Shown: positions 17,666 through 60,687 of the stretch, piece by piece
Numbering within the stretch: the first letter of the stretch is position 1
Layout of the letters: every line of letters begins with the position of its first letter
Assembly (NCBI RefSeq): GCF_001428505.1
Contig: NZ_LMHU01000007.1
Location: 248,133 to 312,132, forward strand
Length of the DNA: 64,000 nucleotides
DNA from: Terrabacter sp. Root181
Lineage (GTDB): Bacteria > Actinomycetota > Actinomycetes > Actinomycetales > Dermatophilaceae
Direction: 5' to 3'
The notes under the pieces: generated by a model
Database searches by the model: none
What the model was told of the DNA's origin: nothing
The model's input: the letters and a program-made list of their open reading frames with translations, nothing else
Translations under genes and position numbers: made by a program

Positions 17666-18898
17666 ATGGCGTCACAGGCCAGCAGCCCCACGGTCCGGGG
17701 CGCGGCCGACCTGCAGCTGGACCACGCGGTGCTCCGGGTCCTCCGGGAGCGACTGCCCGCCATCGCGTCGACGACGGTCACGGCGGTCGTCGACGAGGTC
17801 CCCGACTACCGCGGAGCCCTCGGCGGGTCCGCCGGCGACACGATCCAGCGCGCCGTCCAGATGGCCATCGCCGGCTTCCTCAAGCTCGCGGGCGGAGGAC
17901 GCGACGTCGACGCGAGCACCCCGCTCGGCCCGACCCGGGAGGGGGCCTACGCCCTCGGACGCGGCGAGGCACGAGGTGGGCGTTCGATGGACAGCCTGCT
18001 CGCGGCATACCGTGTCGGTGCCCGGGTGTCGTGGCGCGAGCTCGCCCGGGCCGCCGACGAGGCCGGGCTCCCGGCGTCGACGATGGCGAAGTTCGCCGAG
18101 CTGCTCTTCGCCTACATCGACGAGCTGTCGGCCGCGAGCGTCGCCGGTCACACCGACGAGCTGACCACGAGCGGACGGGTGCGTGACCGCTATCGCGAGC
18201 GCCTGGGTCAGCACCTGCTCGCGCGGGCCGGCGTCGACGTCCTGACCGCGGCCGCAGCCCGGGCGGAATGGCCTGCCCCGACCACGCTGACGGCCGTGCT
18301 CCTGCCGGCCGCCCAGGGACGGCGCGCCCTGGCCTCCCTCGGGGCCGACACCCTCCAGGTCGGCGAGGACCTGCCGGGCACCGAGGACGCCGACCCCGAC
18401 CATCCCCCGACGCTGCTGCTCGTGCCCGACGCCGACGGGCCGGGTCGGGTCCACCTGCTGCGCGTGCTCGCCGGACGCCATGCCGTCGTCGGTCCCCCGC
18501 GCCCCTGGGACGACGCGCGGTCGTCGTACGACCGTGCCGCGCGCACGGCGAGGCTGGCCCGGCCGTCGCGCGCCGGCGCCCCGGTCGACACCGAGCAGCA
18601 CCTGGCCGACCTCGTGCTCACGGCCGACCCCGACGCGCTCGCCGACCTGCGAGCCCACGCCCTGGCTCCGCTCGCCGACCTGCCCCCGGGCACCCGGGAC
18701 CGCCTCACCGAGACCCTCCTGTCGTGGCTGCTGCACCAGGGACGTCGCGACGCCGTCGCCGCAGAGCTGCACGTCCATGCCCAGACGGTGCGCTACCGCA
18801 TGGGCCAGGTGCGCGAGCTCTACGGCGATCGCCTGCTCGACCCGGCCGTGGTGCGCGAGCTCGTGGTCGCCCTGTCGGCCGCTCAACCGCACCCCTGA
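17666..18898 (+). CDS. PucR-family transcriptional regulator
   Basis: Protein of 410 residues. The N-terminal half is a helical sensor region; a GGDEF-like middle stretch is weak. The C-terminus carries the PucR-type HTH: LLSWLLHQGRRDAVAAELHV followed by HAQTVRYRMGQVRELYGDRL at about residues 350-392. A good GGAGGAAA site lies 9 bases upstream of the ATG. It is transcribed away from the reductase/desaturase pair and most likely controls it, responding to an unknown (perhaps lipid) signal. Confidence 0.9.
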   Translation: MASQASSPTVRGAADLQLDHAVLRVLRERLPAIASTTVTAVVDEVPDYRGALGGSAGDTIQRAVQMAIAGFLKLAGGGRDVDASTPLGPTREGAYALGRGEARGGRSMDSLLAAYRVGARVSWRELARAADEAGLPASTMAKFAELLFAYIDELSAASVAGHTDELTTSGRVRDRYRERLGQHLLARAGVDVLTAAAARAEWPAPTTLTAVLLPAAQGRRALASLGADTLQVGEDLPGTEDADPDHPPTLLLVPDADGPGRVHLLRVLAGRHAVVGPPRPWDDARSSYDRAARTARLARPSRAGAPVDTEQHLADLVLTADPDALADLRAHALAPLADLPPGTRDRLTETLLSWLLHQGRRDAVAAELHVHAQTVRYRMGQVRELYGDRLLDPAVVRELVVALSAAQPHP

Positions 18899-18920: not shown

Positions 18921-20120
18921 TCAGGTCGCCCAGGTCCGCAGCCAGACGGTCTCCTCCAGCTGGCGCAGACGGTCCAGGGTCTCCTCCGACAGCGCCACGT
19001 CCGTGTCGGTGATGACGTAGCCGAGCTCGCCACGCGTCGACAGCGACTGGCCGGTGATGTTCGCACCCGCCGCGGAGAGCGTCTGGTTGATGGAGGCCAG
19101 GACTCCACGCACGTTGTGGTGGAGGTAGCCGGCCCGGAAGCCGCTCTCGGCCGGCGGAGCCGACACCTCGGGCAGGTTCACGGACAGCGGCGTGACGCCC
19201 GTCTGCACGAAGCCGAGCAGCTTGGCCGCGACGAACGCCCCGATCTCCTCCTGGGCCTCCTGGGTCGAGCCTCCGACGTGCGGGGTCAGGATGACGTTGT
19301 CCAGGCCGCGCAGCGGCGACTCGAACGGGTCGCCCTGGGCCTTGGGCTCGCTGGGGAACACGTCTATGGCCGCGCCGGAGAGGTGTCCGGAGAGGATGTG
19401 CGCGCGCAGTGCCTGGTCGTCCACCACCATGCCCCGGGAGGCGTTGATGAAGACCGAACCGGGCTTCATCAGGGAGAACTGGTCGTCGCCGAAGAGGCCG
19501 GCGTTGCCGGGTCGACCGTCGACGTGGAGGCTGACGATGTCGGCCTCCCCGAGCAGCTCCTCCAGCGATCCGAGCCTCCGGGCGTTGCCGTGCGCCAGCC
19601 GGTCCGCGGTGTCGTAGAAGACGACGTGGAGCCCGATGGCCTCGGCGACGTTGGACAGCTGGGTGCCGATGTTGCCGTACCCGACGATCCCGAGGGTCTG
19701 ACCCCGAGTCTCGTGGCTGCCGCGGGCGGACTTGTCCCAGATCCCGTCGTGCATCCGCTGGGTCTTCTCGGGCAGCCGGCGGGCCAGGGCCAGCATCTCG
19801 CCCAGCACCAGCTCGACGACACTCCTCGTGTTCGAGAAGGGAGCGTTGAACACCGGCACACCGTGCGCGGCCGCCGCCGTCAGGTCGACCTGGTTGGTGC
19901 CGATGCAGAAGCAGCCGACCGCCAGCAGGTCGTCGGCTGCGTCGAGGACGCGCTGCGTCACCTTGGTGTTGGACCGGATCCCCAGCAGGGACACGCCGAC
20001 CAGGGCGTCCACGAGATCACCCTCGGTCAGGGACCCCGACCGGACCTCGACGTCGTGACCGTTGCGTCGAAAGGCCTCGACGGCGACGGGGTGCACGTTC
20101 TCCAGCAGCAGCACCTTCAC
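18921..20120 (-). CDS. serA: D-3-phosphoglycerate dehydrogenase
   Basis: First enzyme of serine synthesis, 399 residues. Substrate-binding halves flank an NAD Rossmann domain with GIVGYGNIGTQ and the 2-hydroxyacid dehydrogenase signature MKPGSVFINASRGMVVDD. The catalytic His lies in LTPHVGGSTQEAQEE near residue 282. The last about 75 residues form an ACT domain (HHNVRGVLASINQTLSAAGA) that normally binds serine for feedback inhibition. This is the compact E. coli-like form without the extra intervening domain of mycobacterial SerA. Confidence 0.95.
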   Translation of the reverse strand: MKVLLLENVHPVAVEAFRRNGHDVEVRSGSLTEGDLVDALVGVSLLGIRSNTKVTQRVLDAADDLLAVGCFCIGTNQVDLTAAAAHGVPVFNAPFSNTRSVVELVLGEMLALARRLPEKTQRMHDGIWDKSARGSHETRGQTLGIVGYGNIGTQLSNVAEAIGLHVVFYDTADRLAHGNARRLGSLEELLGEADIVSLHVDGRPGNAGLFGDDQFSLMKPGSVFINASRGMVVDDQALRAHILSGHLSGAAIDVFPSEPKAQGDPFESPLRGLDNVILTPHVGGSTQEAQEEIGAFVAAKLLGFVQTGVTPLSVNLPEVSAPPAESGFRAGYLHHNVRGVLASINQTLSAAGANITGQSLSTRGELGYVITDTDVALSEETLDRLRQLEETVWLRTWAT

Positions 20121-20311
20121 GTGCGCCTCCTTGTCCGGGACAGGACGTTGTCATGCGAGCGGGTGGGTGGCCAGCGCCTCGTGAGACACGTCCACCGGGA
20201 TCGACCGACCTGATGCTGCCATGCGGGTTCGGCTCGCCGCCAAACCACCCACGAGGTGGTCGGACCGATGCCTGCTCCAGTGACCTCAGGTCCCCCTCCG
20301 GGCCGAGACCA

Positions 20312-20350
20312 CGGGTCGCGGCGACGGGTCGCGGCAGCGGGTCGCCGCAC
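20312..20350 (+). repeat. Three imperfect 13-bp tandem repeats upstream of the sigma/kinase gene
   Basis: Units CGGGTCGCGGCGA, CGGGTCGCGGCAG and CGGGTCGCCGCAC follow one another directly, ending 39 bases before the start codon at 20389. A GGGTAC hexamer (20374-20379) lies between the repeats and the start, so a transcript could begin at or very near the GTG. The repeats could be regulator sites. The remaining gap 20121-20311 shows no gene. Confidence 0.45.
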
Positions 20351-20388
20351 GGGGCTGGGGATCGGGGTCACTTGGGTACGTTGACGCC

Positions 20389-21471
20389 GTGAGCGCGACC
20401 GAGCGCGCCGGGGGTCCCCCCGGGCACAGCGCCGAGGACGTGGCGGACCTGCTTCCCATGGTCCGTCGGATCGTCCATGCCCGCGTCGGCTCGCACCCCT
20501 CCGCGGAGGACCTCGTCCAGGAGACGCTGACCCGCGTCCTTGCCGCCTCGGCCACCATCGAGCCGGGCATGCTCGAGCCCTACGCCATCGTGACGGCCCG
20601 CAACGTGGTGGCCTCCATGTGGCGCGACGCCGACCGCCGGCGGCGCAACCAGCACCGGGTCGTCGACCTCAGCACCCCCGACCTCCCGGACTCGCAGGTC
20701 GTCCTCGACGAGGAGCAGTCGGCGATGGCCACGGCTCTGGCCCGGCTGGGCGAGCGGGAACGTCGAACCCTGCTCGAGCACGAGGTCAGCGGCACCGACA
20801 CCCACACCCTCGCTGCCCGGGCCGGCAGTACCGCCGGTGCCGTGGCTGCCCAGCTGAACCGCACCCGCGCCCGCCTGCGGGTCGAGTACGTACTCGCAGC
20901 TGAGCAGGCGGAGCTGCCGACCGACCAGTGCCGCGCGGTGCTCATCGCCCTCAGTGGCGGTGACCAGCGGCGGCAGCGTGAGGTGCGCGCGGCCCAGCAC
21001 CTCCTCGAGTGCGAGCTGTGTGCTCGGTTGAGCGAGCCGCTCCTCGAACGCGGGCAGCAGCGGGACGACCGTCTCCGCATACCCGTCACGGCGGATCCCG
21101 ACATCGTGTCGGCGCGGCGGGCCGCCCGTGAGCTCGCGTCCCGTCTGGACTTCGCGGCCACCGACCTGACGGTCATCGCCACGGCCGTGTCCGAGGTGTG
21201 CCGCAACATCGTGCGCTTCGCCGGGACGGGTGAGGTCGTGGTCGAGCTGCTCGAGGTCCCCCGCCGTGGGATCCAGGTCGTGGCCCGTGACGGCGGACCG
21301 GGCATCCCCGACATCGACCGTGCCCTCGACGACGGTTTCAGCACGTACGGCGGGCTGGGACTTGGACTGCCCGGGGTCCGCCGGCTGATGGACGAGTTCG
21401 CGATCGCGAGCGAGCCGGGCCACGGCACCACAGTGACCATGACCAAATGGGAGAGGACCCACGATGGATGA
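20389..21471 (+). CDS. ECF sigma factor - zinc anti-sigma motif - RsbT-like kinase fusion
   Basis: Protein of 360 residues that joins parts normally encoded separately. Residues about 15-90 are sigma region 2 (SAEDLVQETLTRVLAASATI) and about 108-168 region 4 (LGERERRTLLEHEV). H204-x3-C208-x2-C211 in QHLLECELCARL is exactly the zinc-anti-sigma (ZAS) pattern. Residues about 235-352 form a GHKL ATPase: N-box SEVCRNIVRFA (E269, N273), G1 box DGGPGIPD at 301, G2 GLGLGLPGV. Sequence and neighbours (RsbR-, RsbS-like) place the ATPase with the RsbT switch kinases. The stop overlaps the next gene by 8 bases. Expected role: a stress-responsive sigma factor controlled by its own kinase/anti-sigma part (inference). 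Confidence 0.88.
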   Translation: MSATERAGGPPGHSAEDVADLLPMVRRIVHARVGSHPSAEDLVQETLTRVLAASATIEPGMLEPYAIVTARNVVASMWRDADRRRRNQHRVVDLSTPDLPDSQVVLDEEQSAMATALARLGERERRTLLEHEVSGTDTHTLAARAGSTAGAVAAQLNRTRARLRVEYVLAAEQAELPTDQCRAVLIALSGGDQRRQREVRAAQHLLECELCARLSEPLLERGQQRDDRLRIPVTADPDIVSARRAARELASRLDFAATDLTVIATAVSEVCRNIVRFAGTGEVVVELLEVPRRGIQVVARDGGPGIPDIDRALDDGFSTYGGLGLGLPGVRRLMDEFAIASEPGHGTTVTMTKWERTHDG

Positions 21472-22378
21472 GCGACCGGAGGAGCACCCGCAGACGCGGG
21501 CCCTGCACGAGAGCCACTGGGCGGACCATGGCGGTGGCGAGCACCTGCTGTCGCAGCTGGTGGCCCATCTGCGCGAGCACCGGACCCGACTGCAGGAGGA
21601 GTGGTCCCAGCGCATCCAGCAGGCCCACCTGCTGACCGCCATGACCCCTCAGGAGATGGCCGCGGAGACCACGTCGGTCTACGACAACTACGTCGAGGTC
21701 CTCGAGACCGGCAACGTCGAGGCGCTCCAGCACTACGCGCGCGACCTCTCGGAGCGCATCATCCCGCGCGGGGTCGAGACGCACGAGGTCGTCGGGATCG
21801 TGCTGCTCCTCCGGGACGTGCTGGCCCGGTCGCTCTTCGAGAAGTACCAGCGCGACTTCTCGAGACTCAACGAGGTGCTCGACGCGTACGAGCCTGCCGC
21901 CAACCGCATCGCGAACACGGTCGCCGTCAGCTTCGTCGACGAGCGCGAGCGCATCATCCGCCAGCAGCAGGACGCGATCCGCGAGCTGTCGACCCCTGTC
22001 CTCCCGGTGCGCGAGCGTCTCCTCATCCTGCCGATCATCGGCGTGCTGGACAGCGAGCGCGCACGTCAGCTCACCGAGCAGCTGTTGTCCGGCATCCGCA
22101 AGCACCGCGCCAAGGTCGTCGTCATCGACATCACCGGCTCACCGGACGTCGACGAGGCCGTGGCGAACCACCTCGTGCAGACGGTCGACGCGTCACGCCT
22201 CATGGGCGCGAGCGTCATCATCACTGGACTATCCCCCAAGATCGCCCAGACGCTGGTGACGATCGGCGTCGACCTGAGCAAGATGAACACGATCGGCGAC
22301 CTGCAGGGCGGCCTGGAAGAGGCCGAACGTCTCCTCGGCTACACCGTGACCCGGAAGGAGGGCAGCACCAGCTCGTGA
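21464..22378 (+). CDS. RsbR-like stressosome protein (RsbRD N-terminal and STAS domains)
   Basis: Protein of 304 residues. Residues about 25-165 are a helical RsbR N-terminal sensor domain (LREHRTRLQEEWSQRIQQAH). A helical linker leads to a STAS domain at about 180-295 with VVIDITGSPDVDEAVANHLV and ASVIITGLSPKIAQTLV, matching RsbR sequences where threonines are phosphorylated by RsbT. It overlaps the sigma/kinase gene by 8 bases and the RsbS-like gene by 4, so the products are made together and probably assemble into a stressosome-like complex. Confidence 0.92.
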   Translation: MDERPEEHPQTRALHESHWADHGGGEHLLSQLVAHLREHRTRLQEEWSQRIQQAHLLTAMTPQEMAAETTSVYDNYVEVLETGNVEALQHYARDLSERIIPRGVETHEVVGIVLLLRDVLARSLFEKYQRDFSRLNEVLDAYEPAANRIANTVAVSFVDERERIIRQQQDAIRELSTPVLPVRERLLILPIIGVLDSERARQLTEQLLSGIRKHRAKVVVIDITGSPDVDEAVANHLVQTVDASRLMGASVIITGLSPKIAQTLVTIGVDLSKMNTIGDLQGGLEEAERLLGYTVTRKEGSTSS

Positions 22379-22791
22379 ACGGCGGACCGGCTCTGGTGTC
22401 CATCATGCGACAGGGATCGACCCTGATCGCATCGGTGCACACTGCCCTCGACGACTCCGAGCTGGTCCGGTTCGAGCACGACCTCATCCACCAGATCGGC
22501 GAGCACCGGTCACGTGGCGTCATCATCGACGTCGCCGCCCTGGACGTCATCGACTCGTTCGCGGCGCTGACGCTGCGGCGCATCGCCGAGATGGCGCGCC
22601 TGCGCGGGGCCCTGACGGTCCTGGTCGGCATCCAGCCCGAGGTGGCCTTCACGATGGTCCGCCTCGGCATGGGCACCGGCCAGGTCCCGACCGCGCTCGA
22701 CCTCGAGGAGGGGCTGGCCCTGCTCGCCGCCCACCCCGGGGCTGGCACCGACTCGACCGAACGGGACGCCCGACCCGGATCCACGCCGTGA
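22375..22791 (+). CDS. RsbS-like STAS protein
   Basis: Single STAS domain of 138 residues, the core partner of RsbR in stressosomes. IIDVAALDVIDSFAALTLRR contains the conserved Ser of RsbS (the kinase target), followed by LVGIQPEVAFTMVRLGM. The GTG start overlaps the upstream stop (GTGA); its stop overlaps the next GTG in the same way. The C-terminal 20 residues are a disordered Asp/Pro-rich tail. Confidence 0.92.
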   Translation: MNGGPALVSIMRQGSTLIASVHTALDDSELVRFEHDLIHQIGEHRSRGVIIDVAALDVIDSFAALTLRRIAEMARLRGALTVLVGIQPEVAFTMVRLGMGTGQVPTALDLEEGLALLAAHPGAGTDSTERDARPGSTP

Positions 22792-23093
22792 CCGGCCCCA
22801 CCGGCCGCACCGTCCTCGACGACCTGACGCAGGACTACCGCATGACCTTGCGCCGCTTCCTCCCCCGCCGTGACGAGGTCGTCCGCGAGTCTGCCTACGA
22901 GCTGGGCCGCCGAGCGTTCACGGCGGGCGTCAGCCTGCTCGACGTCTGCCGCATCCACCACGACGTGTGCCTCGAGGTCCTGCGGGCGACGGGGGCCGAC
23001 GACCTGATCGGTGTCGTCGACGGCGCCGGCGAGCTGCTGCTGGAGGTCCTGGCGGCCTACGACATGACCCACCGCAGCGTGCTCGATCCCTGA
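22788..23093 (+). CDS. Stand-alone RsbU N-terminal-type domain
   Basis: Small helical protein of 101 residues. The pattern LTQDYRMTLRRFLPRRDEVV, ELGRRAFTAGVSLLDVCRIH and a last amphipathic helix matches the RsbU N-terminal domain, the part RsbT binds to switch on the phosphatase. Here no phosphatase domain follows; the gene stops after the helical domain. It is coupled to the RsbS-like gene by a 4-base overlap. It may act as a docking or decoy partner for the fused kinase (inference). Confidence 0.8.
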   Translation: MTGPTGRTVLDDLTQDYRMTLRRFLPRRDEVVRESAYELGRRAFTAGVSLLDVCRIHHDVCLEVLRATGADDLIGVVDGAGELLLEVLAAYDMTHRSVLDP

Positions 23094-23102
23094 GCGCGGG
23101 CA

Positions 23103-23121
23103 CGGACGCCTTGGGCGTCCG
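23103..23121 (+). terminator. Hairpin after the stress operon
   Basis: Perfect 8-bp inverted repeat CGGACGCC/GGCGTCCG with a 3-base loop, 10 bases after the last gene of the operon. Confidence 0.6.
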
Positions 23122-23309
23122 CGCATGACGCGGGCATGTCGCACATCCGTTCGGGGCGCGCTGCTCCGCCGTGCTCGCACGGGCTGCACGGTGCGGGAGG
23201 ACCCGAGCACGTGCTGTCGACTCCCGCGTCATCCGGATGGGCCGACGGCCTCTTCAGGGGTGACCGACGGCCCACGAAGCCGCCCTCACACCGATCAAGG
23301 AGTCACCCC

Positions 23310-23861
23310 ATGAAGCTCACCACCAAGCTGTGCGCCACCGGAGTCACCCTCGCCACGACCGCAGCCCTGGGCCTGATGCCCGCCGCTGCCGCGTCGGCTG
23401 CCCCGTCCGCCGCTCCCGCGGCCGCCCAGGCAGCCAGCACCCCCCGGACCACCGCCTCCTCGACGATCAACCAGGTCATCGCCGGCGTCGGCACGTTCGC
23501 CGGTTCCTTCACGCCGACCTCGTTCACGAACCAGAACGGCCAGCTCGCCGTCACCGGTCTCGTCACCGGCACCCTGACCACCCTGACGGGGACGGTCATC
23601 CCGGTCAGCCAGACCGTCACCACCACGGTGGCGAGCGCGACCACAGCGGGCTCGTGCGACATCCTCAACCTCGTGCTCGGGCCGCTGCACCTCGACGTCC
23701 TGGGCCTGGTCATCGACCTCAACCAGGTGGTCCTGAACATCACCGCGCAGTCCGGCGCCGGCAACCTGCTCGGCAACCTGCTCTGCGCCGTCGCGGGCCT
23801 GCTCGACGGCAACGGCATCAACGGGCTGGCCACCCTGCTCAACCGACTCCTCGGCCTCTGA
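23310..23861 (+). CDS. Secreted hypothetical protein
   Basis: Exported protein of 183 residues with a Sec signal peptide (MKLTTKLC, then an Ala-rich core ending near SASA at residue 31). The mature part is rich in Thr, Leu and Gly with repeated hydrophobic stretches (TGLVTGTLTTLTGTVIPVSQ) and two Cys in separate places (SCDILNL and LLCAVAGLL) that could pair outside the cell. AAGGAG precedes the ATG. No family recognised; similar Leu/Asn-rich exported proteins occur in actinobacteria. Surface or matrix role is a guess. Confidence 0.8.
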   Translation: MKLTTKLCATGVTLATTAALGLMPAAAASAAPSAAPAAAQAASTPRTTASSTINQVIAGVGTFAGSFTPTSFTNQNGQLAVTGLVTGTLTTLTGTVIPVSQTVTTTVASATTAGSCDILNLVLGPLHLDVLGLVIDLNQVVLNITAQSGAGNLLGNLLCAVAGLLDGNGINGLATLLNRLLGL

Positions 23862-58422: not shown

Positions 58423-60222
58423 TCAGACCAGACGGCGGAAGGCGAGAACGGCGACGTCGTCGTGGCGGTCGGGGTCGGACACGACCTCGGCGAGCTCGGC
58501 GAGGACATCGTCGAGGTCGGCGTCGTCCCCGACGTCCGTGAGCAGCTCCTCGGCGGCGACCTGCAGCCGTTTGAGCCCGATGTCGATGCTCTCACCGCGG
58601 CGCTCGACGAGTCCGTCCGTGTACATCAGCAGGAGGTCGCCGGCGACGAACGGCACCCGGGCCGCCAGCCGCGGGATCTCGCCGAGGCCGTGGACCGGTG
58701 AGCCGTCCTCGGTGACGAAGCGCGTCCGACCGCCTGACACGAGCAGGGGTGGCGGGTGACCGGCGACGACGACGGCCAGGTCGTCCCGCGCCGGCTCGAA
58801 GAGCAGGTAGACCGAGGACGCCATCTGCGTCGGCGGCTCGGTCGCCATGAAGCGGTCCATCGCGCCGGCAAGCGCGTCGGGCTCGGGGTCCTGGGTCGCG
58901 AGCACCCTTGCGGCAGAGCGCATCCGCGACCCGGCGACCGCGGCGTCGACACCGCGACCCATGACGTCGCCGAGGACGACAGTGACCCGGCCGTCGTCGA
59001 GGCCGCTGACGTCGTAGTAGTCGCCACCGACGTCGGTGCGACCGGCCTGCCGGTAGACCGTGCCGATCTGCCACCCCGGGATTTCGGGCAGGTCCTGCGG
59101 CAGCAGCGTCGCCTGGAGCACCGACGCGACGCGCCTCGTCTGGGAGTAGAGGTCGGCGTTGTCGATGGCGAGCGCTGCCCGTCGGGCGAGGTCCTCGGCG
59201 AAGGCGACGTCGTCGTGCGTGTAGCGGCGTCCGGACTCCGCCACGACGAAGGTCAGGACGCCCAGCACCCGGTCCTTGGCCACGAGCGGCACCGACATCG
59301 CGCTCTGCAGGCCGAGCTCGCGCGCGACCCTGAGGTGCTCGTCGTCCTGGGCCGACGCGACGAGCATCTCGTCGGTGACGTTCTCGACGAGCAGGCTCTC
59401 GCCGGTGCGAGCCACGTGCGCCGCCCCACCCTGCCGGTCCGGGTCGGGGGGCCAGCGCGTCTCGAGCTCGCGGGCGAGCTGCACCTTGTCGGGGTCGATG
59501 TGGGCGACGGCGAGGGTCCGCAGGACGCCGTCGTCGACCATCTGGACGGAGCACCAGTCGGCGTGGGCGGGCACGGCGAGCGAGGCGACCTGGCGCAGGG
59601 TCTGCCGGTAGTCGAGCGAGGTGGCGAGCGCCTGCGACGCGTCGGCCAGGAACTCGAGCTGGGCGGCGCGGTTGGCGCTCTGCGCCTCGGCACGCAGGCG
59701 CAGCATGGTCTGCGCGCACATGTCGGCAAGCACACCCAGCACCCACACCAGGTCGGGATCGACCGGCCCGACCTGCCCCTCGAACCGGAAGCCCACGGCC
59801 CCGAAGGCCGACCCGTCGGCGCGCGAGATGAGCGGCAGCGTCACCGACGACCGCTCCGTGCCGTCGTCGAGATCCGGGTAGCGCTCGAGCAGCTCCTGCC
59901 GCCCCTCGACCGAGACGATCTGGGTGGTCCGGACGGCGTCGGTGAGCGGCGAGCGCGCGTCGAGGTCGAGGGTCGCCCAGTGACGGGCCTCGGACGGGGT
60001 CAGACCGTGGGTCGCGATCGTGCGCAGCCGCGCCGGACCGTCCTGAACCGCGAGCACGGCGCGGGAGGCCCCCATGACGGTCGAGGCGCGCTCGGTGATG
60101 GTCTCGGTGAGCTCGTCCAGCGTCGTGGCCGCCGCGACCTGGGCCGCGATGCCCGCCAACGCCGCCAGTCGCGGGGCGACCGAGGCGCGGCTCGCCCCCG
60201 GGCTCTGCCATGGCGCGTTCAT
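58423..60222 (-). CDS. GAF-GAF-SpoIIE (PP2C) serine phosphatase
   Basis: Protein of 599 residues from ATG 60222. Two GAF domains (about 20-165 with SRAVLAVQDGPARLRTIATH, and about 185-345 with VLGVLTFVVAESGRRYTHDD) precede a SpoIIE phosphatase (about 375-595) with VGGDYYDVSGLDDGRVTVVL and GDVMGRGVDAAVAGSRMRSA, whose Asp residues hold the metal, and LLMYTDGLVERRGESID. It dephosphorylates an anti-sigma antagonist, releasing stress sigma factors. Kinase and STAS partners lie next to it. Confidence 0.92.
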   Translation of the reverse strand: MNAPWQSPGASRASVAPRLAALAGIAAQVAAATTLDELTETITERASTVMGASRAVLAVQDGPARLRTIATHGLTPSEARHWATLDLDARSPLTDAVRTTQIVSVEGRQELLERYPDLDDGTERSSVTLPLISRADGSAFGAVGFRFEGQVGPVDPDLVWVLGVLADMCAQTMLRLRAEAQSANRAAQLEFLADASQALATSLDYRQTLRQVASLAVPAHADWCSVQMVDDGVLRTLAVAHIDPDKVQLARELETRWPPDPDRQGGAAHVARTGESLLVENVTDEMLVASAQDDEHLRVARELGLQSAMSVPLVAKDRVLGVLTFVVAESGRRYTHDDVAFAEDLARRAALAIDNADLYSQTRRVASVLQATLLPQDLPEIPGWQIGTVYRQAGRTDVGGDYYDVSGLDDGRVTVVLGDVMGRGVDAAVAGSRMRSAARVLATQDPEPDALAGAMDRFMATEPPTQMASSVYLLFEPARDDLAVVVAGHPPPLLVSGGRTRFVTEDGSPVHGLGEIPRLAARVPFVAGDLLLMYTDGLVERRGESIDIGLKRLQVAAEELLTDVGDDADLDDVLAELAEVVSDPDRHDDVAVLAFRRLV

Positions 60223-60288
60223 GGGGCCATCCTGACAGTCGGCGGCCTCGGGCACCCACGGATGGGGCAGAAGTGGGAGCATGCAGGA

Positions 60289-60687
60289 GTGACGGGTCGG
60301 CGGGTGGCCAGGGGACGCGAGCTGGGCCGGGTCGAGTTCGGCCCCGACGACCTCCGCCGCGTGCGCGAGATCGTGCGGGCCATCGCCCGCGAACGCATCC
60401 CCGACCGGGCCGACAACGCCGTGCTCGCCGTCCACGAGGTGGCCGTCAACAGCATCGTCCACGGCGGCGGCCACGGGGTCCTGCTCATCGACGAGACGGC
60501 CGACTCGCTCGTCTTCACGGTCGAGGACGACGACGGCACCGGGTCGGTGCCGGAGGTCCTCCCGCTCGACGAGCAGTCGACGAGCGGACGCGGGCTGTGG
60601 ATCGCCCAGCGCCTGAGTGACCGGCTGACCATCGAGGCCCGCCCGATGCGTACGCGCATCGGCGTGCACCTCAGGCTGGCATCCTGA
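60289..60687 (+). CDS. RsbW-like anti-sigma serine kinase (GHKL ATPase)
   Basis: Protein of 132 residues with GHKL motifs: N-box VLAVHEVAVNSIVHGGGHG (E and N coordinate Mg-ATP), VFTVEDDDGTGSVPEV as the G1 region, and SGRGLWIAQRLSDRLTIEAR as the G2 end. The GTG start has GCAGGA upstream. Divergent from the phosphatase and convergent with the STAS gene (1 base apart). Together they form a partner-switching trio. Confidence 0.9.
   Translation: MTGRRVARGRELGRVEFGPDDLRRVREIVRAIARERIPDRADNAVLAVHEVAVNSIVHGGGHGVLLIDETADSLVFTVEDDDGTGSVPEVLPLDEQSTSGRGLWIAQRLSDRLTIEARPMRTRIGVHLRLAS

Follow-up and report, generated by a model that had tools for sequence, protein, structure and literature searches.

Stressosomes of the RsbRST(X) type, which occur in Bacillus, Listeria, Vibrio and Mycobacterium, bring together the STAS domain of RsbR, a phospho-accepting serine of RsbS, the kinase RsbT and an RsbU_N partner domain. 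In B. subtilis, RsbT phosphorylates RsbR at Thr171 and RsbS at Ser59; phosphorylation of RsbR at Thr205 is believed to be reserved for extreme stress and to inhibit signalling, and RsbX resets Ser59 as well as Thr205 (accessible parts of PMC3944199). The pairing of RsbT with RsbU_N is the activating step in this organism, and the contacts include R19, R23 and N24 of RsbT and E24 and Y28 of RsbU; stressosome operons with RsbU_N-histidine kinases are also mentioned, as are fusions of the Rv1364c type (PAS-phosphatase-anti-sigma-antagonist), in which partner-switch parts are merged in one chain (excerpts of PMC12143880). Extracytoplasmic function (ECF) sigma factors of the groups ECF48, ECF52 and ECF53 carry a C-terminal zinc anti-sigma (ZAS) and transmembrane extension (excerpts of PMC8999054). 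Here we describe a four-gene module on a stretch of 64,000 nucleotides from Terrabacter sp. Root181 (the window, within which all positions are given), where a single protein joins an ECF sigma factor, a zinc-type motif and an RsbT-like kinase, and which probably represents a stressosome that has the sigma factor as its own client and holds and releases it directly.

The four genes encode the fused sigma-kinase, RsbR, RsbS and a free RsbU_N domain, and consecutive genes overlap by 8, 4 and 4 bases, respectively. This bears out an earlier note on this DNA, made from the sequence alone, which had described a 360-residue gene with sigma regions 2 and 4 and an RsbT-like ATPase, followed by rsbR, rsbS and a free RsbU-N domain with overlaps of 4-8 bases. 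The parts are arranged as follows:

20389..21471, + strand: sigma-(zinc-type motif)-RsbT fusion gene, GTG start, 360 amino acids, a single frame free of stop codons
20443..20640, + strand: sigma-70 region 2, residues 19-84 (Pfam PF04542 Sigma70_r2, E 2.4e-11)
20725..20877, + strand: sigma-70 region 4, residues 113-163 (Pfam PF08281 Sigma70_r4_2, E 0.0069, below the cut-off here)
20929..21021, + strand: zinc-type (ZAS-like) motif C181-x22-H204-x3-C208-x2-C211, invariant in 67/67 aligned fusions
21094..21447, + strand: RsbT-like GHKL kinase domain, residues 236-353 (Pfam PF13581 HATPase_c_2, E 1.5e-14)
21464..22378, + strand: RsbR, an RsbRD_N-type N-terminal domain (weak match) and a STAS domain (PDB RsbR 9o4h, E 9.8e-39)
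22375..22791, + strand: RsbS, a single STAS domain with the expected phospho-acceptor Ser61 (PF01740, E 1.7e-12)
22788..23093, + strand: free RsbU_N domain, 101 amino acids, without phosphatase (PF08673, E 3.3e-11)

The N-terminal part of the fused protein belongs to the ECF sigma factors by its regions 2 and 4: the NCBIfam model TIGR02937 (sigma70-ECF) spans residues 19-166 with 60.2 bits against a cut-off of 42.9, and PF04542 covers region 2. Region 4 is weak in the window protein; PF08281 exceeds the cut-off in three of the five fused relatives scanned (L101, L111 and L115, not L110 and L114). Residues 222-360 comprise a linker and the kinase domain, both in Pfam and in a structure model, and no transmembrane helix follows the zinc segment. 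The model of the single chain has a mean predicted local distance difference test score (pLDDT) of 86, mostly confident domains and a predicted template modelling score (pTM) of 0.56. Within the kinase domain, N273, D301, G303, G305, G322, G324, G326, T347 and T348 are invariant in 67/67 aligned fusions; these residues are taken to form the ATP motifs and ATP site, and at the level of sequence the ATP motifs of the RsbT part are intact. Among the domain searches suggested earlier, those for sigma70_r2, HATPase and STAS gave matches, sigma70_r4 and RsbRD matched weakly and zf-HC2 gave no match.

When 84,980 species were scanned with one genome each, the best 80 of 346 confirmed matches were kept, which correspond to 78 loci, and more fusions may therefore exist. 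Seventy of the 78 loci (L051-L120) carry the fusion, two of them (L099 and L120) ending at contig ends; the fused loci extend up to 13 kb, some being shortened by small contigs (shortest 3.6 kb), and canonical loci from the genome search measure about 3.4 kb. The canonical RsbR-S-T set comprises 32 loci (L020, L026-L031, L033-L050 and L122-L128). For the fusion alignment, the window was combined with 66 of the 70 fused loci, leaving out the two at contig ends as well as L113 and L119, where the fused gene is split over frames; sites in RsbR and RsbS were counted in the window and 68 loci (L099 and L120 gave no match), and residues in RsbU_N were counted in 22 of 68 available sequences, namely 21 picked loci and the window. 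A survey of gene neighbourhoods, as the earlier note had suggested, recovered the same four-gene order in 66 of the 70 fused loci, and three of the four exceptions (L072, L073 and L099) run off the contig end. In L120 (positions 33-954, Nocardioides pelophilus) a fused gene cut by the contig start is directly followed by RsbU_N, without rsbR and rsbS between them, and L118 (7985-9811) holds one fused module with two RsbS genes.

The carriers, many of them soil actinobacteria, include Terrabacter, Knoellia, Janibacter, Phycicoccus, Humibacillus, Ornithinimicrobium and Geodermatophilus, as well as Blastococcus, Modestobacter, Nocardioidaceae, Propionibacteriaceae, Cellulomonas, Nakamurella and a Euzebyales metagenome-assembled genome. 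The fusion is recurrent but far from universal: a full-length match was found in 11 of 98 relatives, in 21 of 119 sampled genomes of the family and in 4 of 393 genomes of a class-wide sample, where five candidates were scored per genome. Quick, unrooted trees were built with 28 of the 70 fused loci and the window. The RsbR tree, which has long branches for L122 and L020, places these 28 loci and the window on one side of a branch and 32 others on the other side (support 97), and this separation fits one origin. The RsbT tree likewise sets 29 fused rows against 32 free RsbTs, with a support of just 40. One free RsbT, encoded in L021 (1498-1947, minus strand) of genome G001, which belongs to the same genus and also has the fusion, falls among the fused RsbTs and has therefore probably lost its sigma part; the 3.4-kb stretch of L021 contains no match to RsbR or RsbS.

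The phosphosites that connect RsbR and RsbS with the kinase are retained. The equivalent of RsbR Thr171 (Thr177 in the window) is kept in 69/69 sequences, and the equivalent of RsbS Ser59 (Ser61 in the window) is serine in 69/69. Three parts expected of a stressosome are present in the sequence: an RsbR with N-terminal domain, STAS domain and Thr171 equivalent, an RsbS with the Ser59 equivalent and an RsbT with ATP motifs; a large RsbR-RsbS shell to which the kinase binds would be the further hallmark. Two further features, which we treat as usual companions rather than essentials of membership, are missing, i.e., the second RsbR phosphosite and RsbX. The residue equivalent to Thr205 is threonine or serine in 0/69 fused systems versus 27/32 RsbR-S-T modules; the fused systems have glutamate (54; Glu231 in the window), glutamine (9), alanine (3), valine (2) or glycine (1) instead. 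An RsbX-like match was found in 0/70 fused loci versus 32/32 RsbR-S-T loci, the matches in L037-L050 being weak (E 1e-4 to 1e-13), and no protein of the window's own genome matches RsbX better than E 0.07. Reset enzyme and feedback site are thus lost together in the fused systems. The same genome encodes three SpoIIE-domain proteins (frames of 386-856 amino acids), and one of these, or another phosphatase, could act as reset enzyme.

A regular RsbU consists of RsbU_N followed by a PP2C phosphatase, whereas RsbU_N stands alone in the module. Its residues E30, Y37, G40, R41 and H57 are invariant in the 22 aligned sequences. Arginines matching R19 and R23 of RsbT are found in 67/67 fusions, and the tyrosine matching Y28 of RsbU in 22/22 RsbU_N domains; the matching to the B. 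subtilis positions is provisional. On balance, these residues support a pairing of the fused RsbT with RsbU_N, without proving it.

A candidate target lies directly downstream of the module:

23227..23256, + strand: CGTCAT-N18-TCTTCA, the only exact copy in the genome; promoter that the fused sigma factor is proposed to read
23310..23861, + strand: sec1, 183 amino acids, signal-peptide-like start (by eye), AAGGAG before the ATG, no Pfam family; proposed target gene

Small secreted-protein genes were found near the module in 42 of the 70 loci by flank clustering and tblastn, 22 of them belonging to sec1 and 20 to sec2. These are two separate families, which occur on either side of the module and on either strand, and the one member of each that was scanned has no Pfam match. 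The element precedes sec1 and sec2 alike, mostly 42-99 bases before the start codon. Among 42 upstream regions (41 loci and the window; L079 was dropped as no start was found), 25 contain the exact element, compared to none in 30 shuffle rounds, and each of the 38 regions that match with at most three mismatches has a spacer of 18. The remaining four regions (L057, L069, L093 and L101) lack such a match; an exact site is located farther upstream in L057 and L069. Together, the 70 loci (799 kb) contain 43 exact sites with a spacer of 18; nine other spacers gave zero. Given this fixed spacing and the free choice of strand and gene, the element looks like a sigma promoter, and we take it to be a candidate promoter of the fused sigma factor. 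Its CGTCAT half may resemble the TGTC-type -35 elements of other ECF groups.

The linkage of the element to the module was also examined in whole genomes. In 25 fusion-bearing genomes (from 26 of the 70 loci, picked with the module-side sites known beforehand), the stretch around the module holds 19 of the 23 exact sites. The family sample, which shares at least five genomes with this set (same contig positions), has an exact site in 14/21 fusion-bearing versus 16/98 other genomes (Fisher 9.5e-6), and all 14 have one site at 986-1776 bases from the fused gene. Nine genomes of the same genus show the exact site beside the module in 5/7 with the module and in 0/2 without. Other sites precede PRC-barrel/DUF2382 genes in L072 (by Pfam) and in L082 and L091 (by eye; the site in L082 has one mismatch), a STAS protein in L097 and the fused gene itself in L086. 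Autoregulation via the element was nevertheless rejected, since L086 alone has the site immediately ahead of the fused gene and the usual operon promoter looks to be of a different, TAnnnT type. In L061, L064, L068, L076 and L084, a variant, CGTCAT-N18-TCGTCA, stands near position -430 relative to the fused gene and precedes a small gene (about 90 codons) that lies upstream of the module. In the family genomes G052 and G520 the exact element occurs four and five times, respectively, which suggests a larger regulon in their genus.

According to the mechanism that we propose, the RsbT part would dock at rest on the RsbR-RsbS shell and thus keep the sigma factor off RNA polymerase, and the ZAS-like segment may help to hold sigma in cis. 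Upon stress, RsbT would phosphorylate Thr177 of RsbR and Ser61 of RsbS, so that the sigma-kinase is released; the free RsbU_N would cap the released RsbT surface, hinder re-docking and perhaps open the ZAS-like segment. The released sigma factor would then read CGTCAT-N18-TCTTCA and switch on a very small regulon, chiefly the neighbouring sec1. Since both RsbX and the second RsbR phosphosite are missing, and hence the classic reset and feedback, switching off would need another route, such as another phosphatase, turnover or dilution. Polarity, zinc fold and the role of RsbU_N are what we infer from the sequences. As kinase and sigma factor form one chain, stress could free the sigma factor directly, which was the core of the earlier note and is still the best reading; it gains strength from the conservation of the fusion, the intact kinase motifs, the kept RsbS and RsbR phosphosites and the candidate target promoter beside the module, while the zinc domain of that note is a motif of unconfirmed family and its direct repeats do not look like a component of the conserved system. 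The fuller proposition is an even call: a stressosome turned anti-sigma device, the kinase client being covalently the sigma factor and the RsbU-RsbV-RsbW cascade collapsed into one protein, with the reset phosphatase dropped, a charged residue mostly fixed at the feedback phosphosite and a tiny dedicated secreted-protein regulon served by its own promoter class, CGTCAT-N18-TCTTCA.

If this holds true, the route from stressosome to promoter would be very short, consisting of the sensing shell, the kinase and the sigma factor, and would need neither a phosphatase nor an anti-sigma cascade in between. With its predicted promoter and reporter gene, the four-gene system would allow stressosome release to be read directly, and the joint disappearance of RsbX and the RsbR Thr205 feedback site would provide a natural test of their roles. 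The system also suggests a route by which ECF sigma factors gain new sensors, given that related sigma-ZAS chains bear a membrane part and the fused one a kinase.

Several observations weigh against direct release as outlined. The likeness of the GHKL domain to SpoIIAB and RsbW would allow the opposite polarity, in which the domain clamps its own sigma factor in cis, the STAS proteins RsbS and RsbR act as anti-anti-sigma factors and docking on the scaffold activates. SpoIIAB indeed provides the top PDB matches of the domain by sequence and by fold, with 55.6 bits for TIGR01925 (spIIAB); this is far under the equivalog cut-off of 135, as is the RsbW score (33 vs 145), and the domain is thus not an RsbW/SpoIIAB anti-sigma factor by equivalog score. 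Moreover, it shares 45-64% identity with the RsbTs of RsbR-S-T modules and L021, compared with 25-29% for the chains of SpoIIAB and of B. subtilis RsbW in the fold search, and it is encoded together with RsbR and RsbU_N, which makes such a clamp unlikely. The arrangement of the domains in the predicted structure is uncertain. As to RsbU_N, under the same provisional matching the place of RsbT N24 is taken by glutamate in 60/67 fusions, and that of RsbU E24 by leucine (13/22) or arginine (8/22). RsbU_N, a lone domain that has no effector and keeps part of the RsbT contacts, might also be an inhibitor or anti-sigma sink that holds the released kinase-sigma, output then requiring both stress and removal of RsbU_N. 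This variant departs from direct release in the sign of a single step, and we consider it a tentative possibility: in B. subtilis the pairing activates (excerpts of PMC12143880), and the sequences here leave the sign either way. The earlier idea that RsbU-N competes for the kinase is plausible, some RsbT contacts being kept and others not, and pairing could equally activate or inhibit.

What ties the fused sigma factor to the element is linkage alone, and the element was first spotted in the module-linked genes themselves. Seven of the 21 module-bearing family genomes lack an exact site. Next to the module, G008 shows a site with one mismatch and G004 shows none, and the other five (G040, G532, G542, G556 and G557) were covered by exact search only. 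Of the 22 exact sites in module-bearing genomes, 8 are not within 3 kb of the fused gene. The element might be read by another sigma factor or regulator and be linked to the module for unrelated reasons, in line with the 20 exact sites in the 16 module-less family genomes and with the different, TAnnnT-type promoter that the operon itself mostly has. We regard this as doubtful, as the sites in module-bearing genomes cluster beside the module (19/23 and 14/22 in the two overlapping samples) and stand before secreted proteins of two unrelated families, on both sides of the module and on both strands. The idea that separate sigma and kinase genes were joined by chance or by an assembly error, for which the split frames of L113 and L119 might speak, has a negligible probability: it is ruled out by the conservation of the 67 aligned single-frame fusions (window and 66 loci) from many genera, and the RsbR tree sets the fused loci apart. 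Separate-gene homologues or a defective RsbT ATP site, either of which the earlier note had named as fatal to its reading, were thus not what the data revealed; the ATP-motif residues inspected are all invariant.

The zinc-type segment is the least secure part. It has the C-x(n)-H-x3-C-x2-C pattern of ZAS/zf-HC2 domains, and H204, C208 and C211, which had been noticed before, are invariant in 67/67 fusions, as is the upstream cysteine C181, which was absent from the earlier pattern. The zf-HC2 profile matches neither in the window protein (Pfam) nor at the position of this protein when the whole genome is scanned. A comparison by hhalign with six zf-HC2 domains from this genome gave a probability of 31% (E 5e-4) over just 18 columns, the membrane relative L121 matches zf-HC2 with E 2.4, and no PDB fold match was found for a model of the 53-residue segment. 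As profile, hhalign and fold searches gave no confirmation, zf-HC2 was dropped as established family, and the putative zinc anti-sigma domain amounts to a motif of unconfirmed family.

The nearest free RsbTs belong to ordinary RsbR-S-T modules. In the modules L125, L126 and L027, RsbR-S-T is followed by an RsbX-like gene and then by an RsbU_N match, which by eye runs into a histidine-kinase-like part in L125 and a PAS-like part in L126. The RsbRs of L122-L128 are 56-78% identical to that of the window (76-78% in L125/L126), and the RsbTs of L125/L126 are 54-61% identical. In L121 (6001-7170), L025 and L032, the same ECF sigma factor and zinc-type segment lead, by eye, into a hydrophobic helix and one more domain; a PRC-barrel/DUF2382 stress-protein gene adjoins L032 (Pfam) and L025 (by eye), and the examined stretches of all three contain no CGTCAT-N18-TCTTCA element up to two mismatches. 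Because these relatives share the sigma factor and zinc-type segment before their membrane part, the fusion looks like a sigma-ZAS chain, the membrane part of which was replaced by RsbT, and RsbU looks trimmed to the domain that binds RsbT; in both cases we infer the direction of change.

The module thus resembles several described systems in part. It shares with the RsbRST(X) stressosome the RsbR STAS domain, the RsbS serine, the RsbT kinase, the RsbU_N partner and the Thr171/Ser59 equivalents, but differs in the ECF sigma factor borne by RsbT, the gene order T-R-S-U_N instead of R-S-T, the lack of an RsbX-like gene among those searched, a second RsbR phosphosite that is mostly glutamate and an RsbU_N without phosphatase. 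The modules L125 and L126 likewise have RsbU_N and related RsbR and RsbT proteins; in them the effector is attached to RsbU_N and RsbT is free, whereas here RsbU_N is free and RsbT bears the effector. ECF48/52/53 proteins also place a zinc-type segment after the sigma factor in one chain, but have a membrane/outer part where the fused protein has a cytosolic RsbT-like kinase, and activation of the latter would be expected through kinase release rather than proteolysis. Fusions of the Rv1364c type, as described in excerpts of PMC12143880, merge partner-switch parts in one chain as well, yet contain no sigma factor. We found no earlier report of a sigma-RsbT fusion in the open literature searched, as far as titles and abstract openings show, and it may already be listed in the 2021 ECF classification; the accessible parts of PMC8999054, PMC8103513, PMC12143880, PMC9237108, PMC8115616 and PMC3944199 name none, and one figure legend of PMC9237108 names a Sigma domain. 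The parts are all of known kinds, and we rate their wiring as new, a variant of the stressosome.

Upstream of the operon and at its end, three smaller features were considered:

20312..20350, + strand: three direct repeats CGGGTCGCsGC, starting at 20312, 20325 and 20338 with a period of 13 (sequence)
20374..20379, + strand: GGGTAC, within a -10-like element [GC]GTA[CG]nnT before the start codon (conservation)
23103..23121, + strand: 8-bp GC hairpin after the operon, a possible terminator (weak, z -1.5; not called by the terminator scan)

The GGGTAC noticed earlier proved to be part of a conserved element: [GC]GTA[CG] begins 10-22 bases before the start codon in 49/68 fusion genes versus 22/477 other open reading frame starts of the same loci, and the final T of TAnnnT is present in 52 of 53 with the pattern. 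The element would be a leaderless-type operon promoter; a scan of 20100-23400 for sigma-70 promoters and terminators called nothing. The three direct repeats of the earlier note do exist, but they look strain-specific and probably lie outside the conserved system, as none were seen by eye in the upstream sequences of relatives, and they were rejected as a regulatory site for this reason.

Elsewhere in the window, a frame for a PucR-type helix-turn-helix regulator (17666-18898, + strand) lies upstream of the module. A GAF-SpoIIE phosphatase frame (58423-60669, minus strand) and an RsbW-like HATPase frame near its 5' end (60343-60654, + strand) perhaps form a divergent partner-switch pair with provisional starts.

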